Source: Saprospiraceae bacterium
Lineage (GTDB): Bacteria; Bacteroidota; Bacteroidia; Chitinophagales; Saprospiraceae
Direction of reading: 5' to 3'
Assembly: GCA_028285545.1 (NCBI GenBank)
Contig: JANQPA010000128.1
Location: 62,001 to 126,000, forward strand
DNA length: 64,000 nt
Below, piece by piece: positions 5,927 to 16,133 of this stretch; position 1 is the first letter of the stretch; every line of letters starts with the position of its first letter. The notes under the pieces were generated by a model. That model ran no database searches. It saw only the letters and a list, made by a program, of their open reading frames with translations, and had not been told where the DNA came from. The position numbers and the translations under genes are program-made.

Positions 5927-7015
5927 ATGAACAACATTAAAATAAAAAAAGAAGAATTTGACACTAACCGCAACGAAATAGCCAGAGCAGAATCTTTATG
6001 GGATAAGAATTTCCCAAAAGATTATGTAGAATTCTTACTACAAAACAATGGGGCGGTAGTATATCCAAATTGGCCTAATTTGGGCCCTGAAAACAAAACA
6101 GAAATTTGGGGGGTGGAACGTTTTTTTAGTATTGGTGATATAATCATTCAGAAACTTTACCCGATAACATATACTCTACATGATGTCGATGAAGAAGCCT
6201 TTGAAGAACATAATTTAAATCCTGAAAACATTTTGATATTTGCACAAGGAGAAAGAGGAGTTTACTTTTTCAATCTGGCCAAAGAGGAATATGGGCATAT
6301 TTATATTGCAAATTATTCGGGAGGAGATGGAATTTCAAAAACGTCAGCTAAATCGTTTAATGAATTCATTAATTCTCTTGGATTACCTGAGTGGGATGAA
6401 GAAGGGATTGACGCTGACTTCGAATTCTCAAATGAATATCATTCAGGTTTAAAGGTGTTGCAATGGCATATGTTTTATACTCCCGATAATCCCCAGTTGG
6501 GTCTCCAAAGATTTAAAGAGGTATTTGAATACACAGGAGACATATTGCCAAAAGAAGATGGATATCCAACTATTATTCAAAAGTATGTAGACGATAAATT
6601 AAAGCTGGATTACCTTTTACAAAACGGCTGTAGTACTGATGGACTTTTGACAAGTGCTAAACAAGCAAAAACAATTCAATACTTAGTCCAAGAATTAAAC
6701 CTAGATATAAATGAAAAATATAATAATAGATATCCCTTACAAAACTATCTATCTTCAGGATATAACCCTCAGTTCCAATACGAAGTAATAAATGAATTAT
6801 TGGAAATGGGGATTGAAATGGATTGGTCAATCCAGGCAAAACTAATGAATGGAGAAGACGATTTACCTATGATTGAAAAACTGCGAATTCTCCATGAAAA
6901 ATATATTGAATTAGAATTAAAAGAAGAAGAATTTCGCAAAAAGCATAATAGACCTAGTGGAAGATCTCCTTTTATTAAGAGTAAACTTATAGAAGAAAAA
7001 CTTGGAGTTAGCTAG
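5927..7015 (+). CDS. SUKH (SMI1/KNR4) family protein with ankyrin-like C-terminal region
   Basis: 362 residues. Residues about 8-155 match the SMI1/KNR4 pattern: W followed by FPKDYVEFLLQNNGA, then GVERFFSIGDI and ILIFAQGERGVYFFN. Known members are often immunity proteins against polymorphic or contact-dependent toxins. Residues about 200-330 look like loose ankyrin-type helical repeats (LDYLLQNGCSTDGLL; IQYLVQELNLDINEK). No cognate toxin gene lies next to it. It sits with small single genes flanked by attC-like sequence, so an orphan immunity cassette is plausible. It is most likely cytoplasmic. Confidence 0.75.
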   Translation: MNNIKIKKEEFDTNRNEIARAESLWDKNFPKDYVEFLLQNNGAVVYPNWPNLGPENKTEIWGVERFFSIGDIIIQKLYPITYTLHDVDEEAFEEHNLNPENILIFAQGERGVYFFNLAKEEYGHIYIANYSGGDGISKTSAKSFNEFINSLGLPEWDEEGIDADFEFSNEYHSGLKVLQWHMFYTPDNPQLGLQRFKEVFEYTGDILPKEDGYPTIIQKYVDDKLKLDYLLQNGCSTDGLLTSAKQAKTIQYLVQELNLDINEKYNNRYPLQNYLSSGYNPQFQYEVINELLEMGIEMDWSIQAKLMNGEDDLPMIEKLRILHEKYIELELKEEEFRKKHNRPSGRSPFIKSKLIEEKLGVS

Positions 7016-8590: not shown

Positions 8591-9142
8591 ATGAAAGGAA
8601 AAAATAAGCAAATATGGCTGGAAAAAGGGTATCAAATGATATCCGAAAATGGTTTTACAAAAGTAAATGTGGAATCTATCGCTCGAGCTGTCAATAAGAA
8701 TAAATCTTCCTTTTATTATTATTTTGGAGACTGGGAAGGCTTTGAGGATTCTTTATTAGAATATCATCTAAGTTTAGCAGAAGAATTTGCACTAGAGATC
8801 CGCAATTGTCAGAGTATCATCCCTGGTATGGTGGATATATTCCTTGATTATAAAACGGATATATTTTTTCACAAACAGCTTAGGATTAACAGGGATAAAC
8901 CTCAGTTTAAAAAATGCTTTGAATCCGTATTTAACATTTTTGAAAATGCCATCCTCGAAACATGGAAGTCCTTTCTAATGTTGGAGGACCAATCTTTTTT
9001 GGCCGCTAAAATCCTTGCCTTATTGAGTGAAAACTTTTTGCTCAAAATCACTTATGAAAATTATACCTACCAATGGATGTATAATTACCTCCTGGATGTA
9101 GCCCAATTATTAGAGGAAATCAATTCTAAATCAAGAAACTAA
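8591..9142 (+). CDS. TetR-family transcriptional regulator
   Basis: 183 residues. The N-terminal 50 residues carry the TetR helix-turn-helix (GYQMISENGFTKVNVESIARAV..KSSFYYYFGDW pattern), followed by an all-helical ligand/dimer domain. It is the nearest regulator to the desaturase fusion that begins 264 bp downstream on the same strand, and TetR proteins commonly control lipid-desaturation or redox genes. Three hairpins lie between them, so they are separate transcripts. The ligand is unknown. Confidence 0.88.
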   Translation: MKGKNKQIWLEKGYQMISENGFTKVNVESIARAVNKNKSSFYYYFGDWEGFEDSLLEYHLSLAEEFALEIRNCQSIIPGMVDIFLDYKTDIFFHKQLRINRDKPQFKKCFESVFNIFENAILETWKSFLMLEDQSFLAAKILALLSENFLLKITYENYTYQWMYNYLLDVAQLLEEINSKSRN

Positions 9143-9155
9143 ATAAGCGATAGAG

Positions 9156-9210
9156 GGCGGCTCATAACTTCTACCTGTCGGTAGACAGGCGTTCCTCGTT
9201 CTGAGCCGCC
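9156..9210. repeat. Nested hairpin repeat containing CCTGTCGGTAGACAGG
   Basis: The outer stem GGCGGCTCA/TGAGCCGCC (9156-9164 with 9202-9210) encloses an inner stem CCTGTC/GACAGG (9174-9179 with 9184-9189). The inner core resembles the sequence at 46090-46106, so it is probably a dispersed palindromic repeat and not a simple terminator. Confidence 0.6.
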
Positions 9211-9223
9211 AAATGATTTTCTT

Positions 9224-9280
9224 TTTGAGGTGTAATTTTTAAGGGGAAATGGAATTTCCCCTTAAAAATTACACCTCAAA
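9224..9280. terminator. Long perfect hairpin, 27-bp arms
   Basis: Arms 9224-9250 and 9254-9280 are perfectly complementary with the 3-base loop GGA. The stem includes AAGGGG/CCCCTT and A/T tracts. It follows the TetR gene and probably blocks read-through in either direction. Confidence 0.7.
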
Positions 9281-9283
9281 GAA

Positions 9284-9334
9284 ATAATAAAGGCTGGCGA
9301 ATCCGCCTGAGGCGGATGAGACAGCCTTTATTAT
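9284..9334. repeat. Nested hairpin with CCGCCTGAGGCGG core
   Basis: The outer 13-bp stem is 9284-9296 with 9322-9334. The inner stem is ATCCGCCT/AGGCGGAT with a one-base loop at 9309. It lies immediately after the long hairpin and before the desaturase gene, and is either a terminator or a palindromic repeat. Confidence 0.6.
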
Positions 9335-9406
9335 ATTGATTAAACGCTATCGTCTATAATTTCAATCTTATTTGTGCCAATTTTGAGCCAAATAAAGAAA
9401 TCAGGC

Positions 9407-11302
9407 ATGAGTATCACATCCAATAGCCAAGTCAGGGAAGTCATCCATCAGGTAGTGAATGATCCAGATTACAAGCAAGTTTCCTATGTACCCTTCATTT
9501 CTTTTCATCAATTGATGCTTATTTTTATAGCCTATGGAGGAGTATTGGGAGGTATGTGGATGCTAATTTATGGAGGATTCTCCCTGTGGATCGTTTATCC
9601 TATAATGATATTTAGCTTTTATACTGCCTTTACTCCCTTGCATGATTCAACCCACAGAGCAGTATCTTCCAATAATTTATTGAATGATATTTTGGGAACT
9701 ATTTCAGGCTCCATACTTTTCCCCCTTTCCAATGCTGTCGGCTACCGCTATCTTCATTTAGCTCATCACAGATACGTGGGGGATAAAAATTTAGACCCAG
9801 ATGAACCCTTGGTGGCTATCCCAACAAAATATTTCCCACTGGGATATCTTTCCCTTTTTTTTCCTGATTTCATATGGACACATTGGCTAATATTCAAAGC
9901 ATGGCAGAGAACACCGGTCAAAACCAGGGTTAATGTACTCTCCATGATTTTAGGAAATATTCTTTTTCATGTGTTGTTTTTAGTTAGCCCAATAGGGTAT
10001 GAGTATTTCATTATATTTTTTATTCCTAATCGGATAGCCATCGCTTATACAGCCTTAACATTTGCTCACACTCCGCACCCGGAGGGTTTAAAATGGAATA
10101 AGCTCCCTTTTCATGCAACCTTTAGCTTAACAGGGAGTAAATATTTCCTATGGTCTTTGTATGGTCAAAAACATCATGCCATGCATCATTTTCTTCCACA
10201 CATACCCTGGTATAAATATTTCAAGGTATGGGACTTGGCAAACGGAACCTTTCGCAAACAAAATATTCCAGAAAAACATGTTTTCTCAAAACCTGACCTG
10301 CATTATAAGGAAGGTGTTCTTAAACAATTAAGCAATAAGGATAAGACAACTTTATTGGTAAAAGTTACATCCGTTGAAGAGGTTGGTAAAAATGTAAAAT
10401 CCTTTGTGTTTACCTCCGCAGATGGTAATCAACCCTTACCCGAATTCACAGCCGGTTCGCATATTAAAATTCATTTGCCAAGCGGAAAAATAAGGGCTTA
10501 CTCCATTGTAAATCCATCTTATGAGAAAAATAAATATCAAATAGCAGTAAAACTTGAACCCAATGGAATGGGCGGTTCAAAGGAAATGCATGAGGGAATT
10601 TCTGTAGGAAAAACTTTAGAAATATCTTATCCCAGCAACAATTTTGTTTTATATGAAAATGTGAAAAAATACATTCTATTAGGCGGAGGGATTGGCATTA
10701 CCCCATTGCTTTCCATATCTCATCGCTTAACAGAAATTGAAAAATACTTCGAACTGCATATTTGTATCAAATCCGAAGAGAACCTGCCTTTTCAATATGA
10801 ATTAAGGAATTGGACCTTTGCACCCAATGTTGAAATTCATATAGACAAGGCAGGCAAATCATCTATGGATATCAATAGGGTTTTAGCTAATCCGGATAAA
10901 GACACCCTAATTTATGCATGCGGTCCCTCAGGTTTTAATAAATGGATAAAACAAAGTGCCCTTAACTTGGGCTGGGGAAATAACCAGATTAAACAAGAAG
11001 TTTTTTCAATGGATCAGGCTGAAACATCAGCTCCCAAAGAATTTCGATTAGTCCTTAACAAAAGTGGGAAATCCCTTATCGTAAAAAAAGAAGAAACAAT
11101 TATTGATGCCCTTCACCTAAATAACATCAAAGTTCCTTACTCCTGTCTTCAAGGTACTTGCGGAACTTGCATTACAAAGGTAATTAAAGGCAAAATAGAC
11201 CATAGAGACGCTGTGTTGAGTGAGGAAGAAAAAAGCGAAAATGATAAAATGTGCATTTGTGTTTCCAGAGCGAAAGATGATATGCTGATTGTGGATATTT
11301 AA
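9407..11302 (+). CDS. Fatty-acid desaturase fused to flavin reductase and 2Fe-2S ferredoxin
   Basis: 631 residues from ATG 9407; a GTG-initiated extension from 9374 is possible. The N-terminal half is a membrane di-iron desaturase/hydroxylase with several TM helices and three His boxes: HDSTH from 79, HLAHH from 117 and HHAMHH from 256. Residues about 325-540 form a ferredoxin-reductase unit with an RAYS FAD motif from 363, a GGGIGITP nucleotide motif from 426 and YACGPSGF. The C-terminus is a plant-type 2Fe-2S domain with Cys580, 585, 588 and 618 (Cys616 is nearby). One chain can therefore carry electrons from NAD(P)H through FAD and 2Fe-2S to the di-iron site. The substrate is probably an acyl chain or other hydrophobic C-H bond. 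Confidence 0.9.
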   Translation: MSITSNSQVREVIHQVVNDPDYKQVSYVPFISFHQLMLIFIAYGGVLGGMWMLIYGGFSLWIVYPIMIFSFYTAFTPLHDSTHRAVSSNNLLNDILGTISGSILFPLSNAVGYRYLHLAHHRYVGDKNLDPDEPLVAIPTKYFPLGYLSLFFPDFIWTHWLIFKAWQRTPVKTRVNVLSMILGNILFHVLFLVSPIGYEYFIIFFIPNRIAIAYTALTFAHTPHPEGLKWNKLPFHATFSLTGSKYFLWSLYGQKHHAMHHFLPHIPWYKYFKVWDLANGTFRKQNIPEKHVFSKPDLHYKEGVLKQLSNKDKTTLLVKVTSVEEVGKNVKSFVFTSADGNQPLPEFTAGSHIKIHLPSGKIRAYSIVNPSYEKNKYQIAVKLEPNGMGGSKEMHEGISVGKTLEISYPSNNFVLYENVKKYILLGGGIGITPLLSISHRLTEIEKYFELHICIKSEENLPFQYELRNWTFAPNVEIHIDKAGKSSMDINRVLANPDKDTLIYACGPSGFNKWIKQSALNLGWGNNQIKQEVFSMDQAETSAPKEFRLVLNKSGKSLIVKKEETIIDALHLNNIKVPYSCLQGTCGTCITKVIKGKIDHRDAVLSEEEKSENDKMCICVSRAKDDMLIVDI

Positions 11303-14429: not shown

Positions 14430-16133
14430 ATGAGATTAAAGCCAATCCCAAGCATAATTACCTTATGCCTATTGCTTTCTTCAATCAACCTGAAGAGCGA
14501 AGTGATTTATGTGAGTTCTCAACAAGAATTTGATGAAGCACATGATCGCTCCACAATGAATGATTCGATCATTTGGCGGTCTGGTACGTATTCAGATATC
14601 TTTATGGACATAGATAAAGATCACCTTTTTATCGCAGCAGAGAATTTGGGAAGGGTCATTTTCACTGGAGCATCAAGAGTGGATATAACAGGTGATTACA
14701 TTACTTTGCAGGGCTTCCAGTTTTTGGATGGAGATATTGGGACAAGAGATGTCATCAACACCAGAGGGAGTTATAATATTTTTACTCAAATCAACATCAG
14801 AGCCTATACTTGCTATAAGTATTTAAGGGTACGGGAAGAGAGTCAATTCGTCGAAATCACCTATTGCAATTTCGAAAACAGACTCAACCTGGATGATCAA
14901 AATATTCTATCCATACTTGTTGATGAGAACAATCCTGGCTATCACAAAATACAATACTGTTCTTTTAAAAACTTTGATGGAACTGGAAACGATATGGGTA
15001 TTGAACCCATAAGAATTGGACTCAGCACACAAGCAGATCACATTAGCAGAACCTTAGTAGAATACTGTTATTTTACTCAGTGTGATGGTGATGGTGAACT
15101 CATTTCCAGCAAGGCAAGCCAAAATGTTTATCGATACAATACTTTTGAAAATAATCCAAAAGCCGAATTAGTACTTCGTCATGGTTCGGAAGCTATTGTA
15201 TATGGTAATTTCTTTTTGAATGGAAAAGGAGGAGTTAGAGTTAGAGAAGGACAGAACCATTATATCTATAATAATTATTTTTTCGAATTAGATGATCGGG
15301 CTATCTATCTCCAAAACGAAGATTCAGATCCTTTGGATAATATCAATATTGCCTTTAATACGGTAGTTGATTGCTCCGAGATAATCCTTGGCGGTGATGG
15401 CAACGATAAGCCCACCAATGTCACCTTTGCCAATAATATTTTTGCTGATCCTGATGATGAGCTGTTTGAAGACCCGACAGGAACAGAAACCTGGATTGGA
15501 AATATTTCATTTGGCAATCTCGGAATGCCCGTACCTGCGAACGGAATGACGATTACTGATCCACTGTTAGAAATGAACAGTGAAGGTTTTTGGGGTTTAG
15601 CTCAAAATAGTCCAGCAATAAATGCAGCACAAGCTAATTATGCTTTTCTCCCTGAATTTGAGAACATAGATGATATAGATACCGAAATGTTATTTGACCT
15701 AATGGGACAAAATCGCCCCGTGTTAATAGCAGAAAAAGATTTGGGTTGTAACGAATATCCACATAATACAGTTATTCAGCCGATTGCAACAGAAGAAAAT
15801 ACAGGACCAGGTTATAATACCTCTATAATATCAGATGTACAATCCAGACCAATCATTGTAAATGACCTTATCAAAATTAAGCCCAACCCTGTTACCGACG
15901 ACCTCAATATTTCTATTTTTAGTGATGCTAAAGCTGAGCTTAAGATGGACATCATGAGCCCAGAAGGCAGAATTATTAAGCCCCTTGCGAAAAACATCAT
16001 TAATCCAGGCACCCAAAACATAATAGAAAATATAGCCGATTTACCATCAGGAATATATTTCATCCGTGCCACCAGTCAAAATAAGCAATTAGGGGTTGAG
16101 AAGCTCCAAACCCTTAGATTTATTAAGCATTAA
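14430..16133 (+). CDS. PL6-family polysaccharide lyase (alginate lyase/chondroitinase B-like), T9SS-exported
   Basis: 567 residues: signal peptide 1-23, a right-handed parallel beta-helix of the chondroitinase-B/PL6 family at about 25-420, and a C-terminal T9SS type A sorting domain at about 485-567 (KPNPVTDDLNISIFS...LPSGIYFIRA). The catalytic pair is visible as Lys228 (SSKAS) and Arg250 (VLRHG), 22 residues apart, against Lys250/Arg271 in chondroitinase B. It cleaves uronic-acid polysaccharide by beta-elimination at the cell surface or outside. Alginate is the most likely substrate. No SusC/D pair or other alginate genes are adjacent. Confidence 0.9.
   Translation: MRLKPIPSIITLCLLLSSINLKSEVIYVSSQQEFDEAHDRSTMNDSIIWRSGTYSDIFMDIDKDHLFIAAENLGRVIFTGASRVDITGDYITLQGFQFLDGDIGTRDVINTRGSYNIFTQINIRAYTCYKYLRVREESQFVEITYCNFENRLNLDDQNILSILVDENNPGYHKIQYCSFKNFDGTGNDMGIEPIRIGLSTQADHISRTLVEYCYFTQCDGDGELISSKASQNVYRYNTFENNPKAELVLRHGSEAIVYGNFFLNGKGGVRVREGQNHYIYNNYFFELDDRAIYLQNEDSDPLDNINIAFNTVVDCSEIILGGDGNDKPTNVTFANNIFADPDDELFEDPTGTETWIGNISFGNLGMPVPANGMTITDPLLEMNSEGFWGLAQNSPAINAAQANYAFLPEFENIDDIDTEMLFDLMGQNRPVLIAEKDLGCNEYPHNTVIQPIATEENTGPGYNTSIISDVQSRPIIVNDLIKIKPNPVTDDLNISIFSDAKAELKMDIMSPEGRIIKPLAKNIINPGTQNIIENIADLPSGIYFIRATSQNKQLGVEKLQTLRFIKH

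Follow-up and report, generated by a model that had tools for sequence, protein, structure and literature searches.

Desaturases and hydroxylases of the membrane di-iron class as a rule depend on separate electron carriers, and the need for matched partners makes these enzymes hard to use and to study. The window analysed here, a stretch of 64,000 nucleotides from a contig of Saprospiraceae bacterium, includes a gene at positions 9407 to 11302 in which a membrane di-iron oxidase, a reductase of the phthalate dioxygenase reductase (PDR) type and a [2Fe-2S] ferredoxin are joined in one chain of 631 amino acids. The locus raises the questions of whether such a protein could feed electrons to its own di-iron site, how its gene is controlled, and which reaction it might catalyse.

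Domain organisation of the fusion protein

The reading frame at 9407..11302 (+ strand, as for all features given below) is translated without a stop codon. A GTG codon 33 nt 5' of position 9407 opens the same frame; as all relatives begin with MS(I/T), 9407 was taken as the right start. A CrtR-like membrane domain of the FA_desaturase superfamily occupies aa 1–305 (9407..10321), with a match to Pfam PF00487 at aa 61–290 (2.3e-19, 70.6 bits against a curated cut-off of 29.7). It is followed by a flavin-binding barrel at aa 318–413 (10358..10645; FAD_binding_6, PF00970, 1.5e-9) with the motifs RAYS (RxYS) at 363 and GGS at 389, and by an NAD(P)H-binding domain at aa 424–514 (10676..10948) with GGIGITP at 427 and CGP at 505. 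The latter gave 20.3 bits with NAD_binding_1 (PF00175), just below the cut-off of 22, and was also recognised by its invariant motifs and by alignment with the PDR structure 2pia. The last domain of the chain is a plant-type [2Fe-2S] domain at aa 551–623 (11057..11275; Fer2, PF00111, 2.3e-13), with the predicted cluster ligands C580, C585 and C588 in CLQGTCGTC (580–588) and C618.

The membrane domain includes the His boxes HDSTH (aa 79–83; 9641..9655), HLAHH (aa 117–121; 9755..9769) and HAMHH (aa 257–261; 10175..10189), which together with a further histidine fit the HX3H/HX2HH/HX2HH pattern of the superfamily. The additional residue, H224 in PHPEG (10076..10078), is likely to be the ninth iron ligand. 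All nine histidines (79, 83, 117, 120, 121, 224, 257, 260 and 261) are invariant in 15 relatives, both fused and unfused, in some of which identity to this domain is as low as 20–25%. Hydrophobic segments at aa 25–78 and 175–219 form two clusters, each of the size of a helix pair, and are predicted to be transmembrane helices. A profile of the di-iron domain compared with solved structures gave no match except one irrelevant designed protein, and an AlphaFold2 model based on six orthologues (mean pLDDT 59, pTM 0.32) is too weak to judge the geometry between the cluster and the di-iron site.

In seven relatives of 54–75% identity, the di-iron histidines including H224, the flavin and nucleotide motifs and the four cluster cysteines are invariant. 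Among members at 70–75% identity, pN was 0.12–0.23 and pS 0.64–0.91 per domain, with synonymous change near saturation, and all three domains are under purifying selection. The presence of three His boxes, flavin and nucleotide motifs and four cysteines in one chain, first noted in a sequence-only reading of this DNA, is borne out by the Pfam matches, the motif positions and their invariance. An assembly artefact or a decaying gene, to which one relative truncated to a frame of 105–115 aa might point, has a negligible probability given 11 full-length copies in different genomes, including a Spirosoma strain record, and purifying selection in every domain; for the family, the independent copies already refute it.

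The reductase spans aa ~316–540 and precedes the [2Fe-2S] domain. From aa 316 to the C-terminus, the protein aligns end to end with 2pia (1.3e-53, 186 bits), and also with the reductase half of CYP116B46 (6laa, 3.6e-48). The domain order, flavin–NAD–C-terminal [2Fe-2S], matches that of the PDR type, as judged by Pfam and the 2pia alignment. In a tree of 43 reductases, those of the fused proteins of the window type (designated F1) branch with the PDR-type enzymes (100/100) and separately from the PaaE-type reductases that are common in Bacteroidota. The GGS motif is present in all 11 fused F1 rows and all seven PDR rows and in none of the rows of PaaE-type reductases, which are one residue shorter at this position, or of two other fusion types (F2 and F3, see below). 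By these comparisons, the reductase is assigned to the PDR type.

CYP116B46 was co-purified with FMN, and its crystal structure was read as an NADPH→FMN→[2Fe-2S]→heme chain (PMC7260179). As F1 groups with the PDRs and CYP116B46 has the same reductase type, the flavin of the fusion is most likely FMN. The FAD named in the sequence-only reading is therefore likely wrong, given the grouping with PDRs and a GGS motif that PaaE-like reductases lack. An inactive reductase domain, which that reading had held in reserve as an objection, is unsupported, all reductase motifs being intact. The protein is regarded as self-sufficient because a complete set of redox motifs lies in one reading frame and is invariant in relatives. 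The suggestion that it could work alone stands as to architecture, with a complete, conserved electron chain under purifying selection, and supply of electrons within the single chain is very probable.

Distribution and origin of the fusions

Matches of any kind were found in 16 of 298 genomes of the window's family, and intact F1 genes in eight of the 298 (G000, G245, G684, G850 with two copies, G865, G725, G156 and G895); a further F1 gene runs off the end of its contig, and another is truncated. The named F1 relatives are from Saprospiraceae MAGs, an Aureispira MAG and Spirosoma lacussanchae. No further F1 was detected in 395 genomes of the phylum, 200 of the Spirosoma family and 390 of its order. 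Beyond Bacteroidota, where the fusion may also exist, the coverage consisted of a pattern-based scan of one genome per species (close relatives only) and of a search of plasmid records. On the plasmids there were PDR reductases and distantly related CrtR-like enzymes; at no place was 80% of the full query covered. Longer matches on Caballeronia and Variovorax plasmids were rejected, as the PDR genes in the loci viewed are either unfused and beside ring-hydroxylating oxygenase genes (L083, L086) or fused to a VanA-type partner (L084). A scan of viral contigs gave no relative of the fusion.

F1 is monophyletic in the di-iron tree (100/98) as in the reductase tree (100/97), with the Spirosoma copy placed among those of Saprospiraceae; this suggests a single fusion event followed by transfer. 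F2 (L041, L042 and L079) is a separate fusion of a CrtR-like domain to a PaaE-type reductase-ferredoxin, and this CrtR-like domain groups with unfused enzymes of Saprospiraceae and not with F1. In F3 (L010 and L013), a PF04116 hydroxylase is fused to a reductase-ferredoxin of the PaaE type. On these placements, the single-chain design seems to have evolved independently in Bacteroidota on at least three occasions.

The sequence-only reading had allowed that such a fusion might be common and already characterised. As far as searched, it is rare, and no description of a desaturase–PDR fusion was found in the open-licence literature, nor any of a natural enzyme of the desaturase type that includes its own ferredoxin. 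A 2022 review (PMC8918992), citing a survey of 2001, states that no ferredoxin-fused desaturase had been found.

TetR gene, palindrome and gene neighbourhoods

Upstream of the fusion gene lies a gene for a TetR-family repressor of 183 aa (8591..9142; Pfam TetR_N above cut-off), probably a local regulator. It is followed by an operator-like palindrome of 16 bp at 9341..9356, TAAACGCTATCGTCTA, with arms TARACG/CGTYTA, and the distance from its ACGC to the ATG of the fusion gene is 63 nt. TetR orthologues sharing 52–68% identity with that of the window are located directly upstream of F1 in L035, L036, L038, L075 and L077, and orthologues of 42–48% identity precede unfused CrtR-like enzymes in L070–L072. 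The sequence ACGCNNNCGTYTA inside the palindrome TRVACGCNNNCGTYTA was found in nine of nine TetR–FADS gaps (six F1 loci and L070–L072), with a distance from palindrome to start codon of 59–108 nt over the nine loci and of 59–70 nt in all six F1 loci. Upstream of related loci that have no TetR gene, the palindrome was found in none of eight, and Fisher's test of 9/9 against 0/8 gave ~4e-5 for related loci that are not fully independent.

The exact TRVACGCNNNCGTYTA occurs once in the 10.16-Mb window genome, at 9341–9356. Whole-genome counts of the palindrome motif do not exceed those of a reversed-pattern control, and the argument therefore rests on position. The linkage of TetR gene and palindrome upstream of these enzymes is a new observation.

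Between the TetR gene and the operator, a nested inverted-repeat element of ~200 bp occupies positions 9145–9350. About 40 similar copies (74–92%) are present elsewhere in the window genome, some at contig ends. The other TetR–fusion loci are without this element, and their gaps are 68–136 nt, compared with 264 nt in the window.

The TetR proteins of F1 and unfused loci are 39–55% identical, while the enzymes that they precede are only 20–23% identical. The simplest reading is that one TetR–operator module has controlled two different enzymes, one replacing the other, and the same job is therefore suggested for both. In G865, a further copy of the palindrome, TTTTAGACGCTGGCGTCTAAAA (24.9 bits), lies ~70 nt before an alkB gene (L102/L109, G865:C48), the AlkB identity of which is supported by a match to 8f6t (5.5e-76). 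Both oxygenases of that genome may therefore be regulated by TetR. Among ten AlkB loci, G865 was the only one with a strong palindrome upstream; a weak site of 11.5 bits, within the background range, lies near the AlkB gene of G156, and the other loci have none.

A perfect palindrome, TAGACGCCGGCGTCTA, also precedes the gene for a 152-aa membrane protein in two related genomes (L094, G850:C5; L105, G902:C72), in G902 at 64 nt from the start. This protein gave no Pfam or NCBIfam match. Other exact palindrome matches in G902, G850, G865 and G765 (L093, L103, L106, L101 and L107) lie within or at the edge of predicted reading frames and were set aside as chance.

The downstream neighbours of the window fusion, which encode a MarR protein, a serine hydrolase and an S58 peptidase, are not conserved. 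The window further includes genes for an SMI1/KNR4 (SUKH) domain protein (5927–7015), of a family often linked to toxin immunity, and for a chondroitinase-B-like protein with a T9SS sorting domain (14430–16133). Defence-system models found nothing. Elsewhere in the window genome are an AlkB-like gene (L003, G000:C31:138345-139364) and two other FADS genes (L001 and L002).

Next to the unfused CrtR-like enzymes behind TetR lies a GMC oxidoreductase at L071 and an Fe-alcohol dehydrogenase at L070. Downstream of the F2 fusion are genes for a GMC oxidoreductase (noted at L079), an OYE-type enzyme and a TetR protein. Such alcohol-oxidising genes accompany the unfused relatives and the second fusion type, and not the window fusion. 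Of the F1 copies that have no TetR gene, that at L076, a second fused copy, is clustered with acyl-CoA dehydrogenase, MaoC, DUF2147, nitronate monooxygenase and MBL genes, and that at L078 lies near a P450-reductase fusion. The truncated F1 remnant (L051/L081, G727:C194; about 105–115 aa) is found in a cluster resembling those of L076 and L078. Together with the AlkB site, these neighbourhoods point to aliphatic compounds as probable substrates for oxidation, hydroxylation being likelier.

Catalytic chemistry and comparison with known systems

The best named NCBIfam model of the di-iron domain is NF045688, the CrtR β-carotene hydroxylase, with 51.8 bits against a cut-off of 475. It is the best named model for all relatives too, and the unfused relatives in the family, at 122–152 bits, are also below the cut-off. 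The domain is thus CrtR-like, a model score of this size not demonstrating CrtR function itself, and no characterised enzyme is close to it. A carotenoid or terpenoid hydroxylase with a built-in electron supply, which the ranking of this model (BCarotHydoxCrtR) would favour, is improbable: the score is far below the cut-off, unfused family relatives score higher yet fail as well, and no carotenoid genes were recognised adjoining the gene in the loci viewed.

An AlkB identity was rejected, since the second His box is HX2HH and not HX3HH, the NYxEHYG and LxRHSDHH motifs are absent, and BLASTP against the genome's own AlkB-like gene gave E=0.51; no AlkB structure was among the PDB matches listed for the fusion protein. 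A P450 of the CYP116B type was also rejected, as Pfam gave no N-terminal p450 match.

The name desaturase, used in the sequence-only reading, holds for the superfamily, by virtue of PF00487, but not for the function, the nearest named model being that of a hydroxylase and the score far below its cut-off. DesT is known to regulate desaturase/oxidoreductase pairs. A self-sufficient desaturase of acyl groups (lipid or acyl-CoA), controlled by TetR for lipid adjustment in the DesT manner, would agree with the PF00487 match, with the existence elsewhere of TetR-regulated desaturase and reductase genes, and with a weak match of one unfused relative to the NCBIfam model of the DesB desaturase. It is nevertheless unlikely, as the CrtR hydroxylase is the best named model for the relatives as well, the sporadic spread (eight family genomes) speaks against a housekeeping lipid role, the window genome has its two other desaturase-like FADS genes, and related loci show an alcohol-oxidising or alkane-oxidation context. 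A hydroxylase is at least as likely as a desaturase, and the genomic context fits it at least as well.

UndB is a FADS-superfamily enzyme with nine histidines modelled as iron ligands, and works with ferredoxin and ferredoxin reductase (PMC12746148). The nine invariant histidines of the fusion would suit an UndB-type fatty-acid decarboxylase giving 1-alkenes. Such an activity is highly improbable, however, since nine conserved histidines are widespread in the superfamily.

The explanation preferred, and considered fairly probable, is a self-sufficient, TetR-repressed NAD(P)H→FMN→[2Fe-2S]→di-iron oxygenase for aliphatic substrates. NAD(P)H would reduce the flavin, probably FMN, in the PDR-type domain, and electrons would pass singly via the C-terminal [2Fe-2S] cluster to the di-iron site; this path is supported by the end-to-end homology of the reductase half to PDR and CYP116B46. 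The protein would reside in the inner membrane with the nine-His site of the CrtR-like domain facing the cytosol. Oxygen activated at this site would serve to oxidise a hydrophobic substrate, which is probably aliphatic; of the two reactions, hydroxylation is more likely than desaturation. TetR would repress the gene via the palindrome at 9341–9356, and a substrate- or product-like ligand would release it.

The wider claim is evenly balanced. It holds that, among FADS/CrtR-like enzymes, this is the first natural self-sufficient one to have its flavin reductase and ferredoxin in the same chain, a membrane di-iron equivalent of CYP116B; that the single-chain solution was reached at least three times in Bacteroidota (FADS with PDR, FADS with a PaaE-type reductase, and PF04116 hydroxylase with a PaaE-type reductase); and that the FADS–PDR type uses the same TetR-controlled slot for hydrocarbon oxidation as a separate CrtR-like enzyme. 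With a compact natural fusion, the transfer of electrons to a membrane di-iron centre could be followed in a single purified polypeptide. Engineering could also take such a protein as its model, one case being UndB-like catalysts, in which uncoupling is a problem (PMC12746148). The linked TetR and operator could lead to the inducer and, from there, to the substrate.

Several known systems resemble parts of this arrangement. The PDR/VanB family (2pia) has the same domain order, the GGS motif and the full-length match described above, but its members are normally separate proteins, whereas the PDR of the window is fused to a membrane di-iron enzyme. The CrtR-type β-carotene hydroxylase belongs to the same superfamily as the catalytic domain and is its best-scoring named model, but that model (297 positions) is without a fused reductase. 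In cytochrome b5-fused desaturases and hydroxylases (PMC8918992), an enzyme of the desaturase superfamily also has a fused electron donor, but only the b5 carrier is fused, without a reductase or an Fe-S cluster. A local TetR gene adjoining that of a membrane di-iron oxygenase is known from AlkX-alkB, in which AlkX controls alkB and palmitic acid reduces its binding to DNA (PMC9430723); in that system the regulated enzyme is AlkB, which has separate rubredoxins, and the parallel is functional, with no claim of homology.

The closest parallels are two. By catalytic class it is ferr_ferrR_AlkB, an active three-domain alkane monooxygenase (Nie 2014 and Williams 2021, as cited in PMC8918992). It likewise combines a membrane di-iron oxygenase, ferredoxin and ferredoxin reductase in one chain, but has N-terminal electron-transfer domains and AlkB, where the window fusion has C-terminal ones and a CrtR-like domain. 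By reductase architecture it is CYP116B (CYP116B46, PDB 6laa), in which a C-terminal PDR-type reductase with a [2Fe-2S] cluster also stands behind the oxygenase; the catalytic domain of CYP116B is a heme P450, and that of the fusion a membrane di-iron domain of the FADS superfamily.
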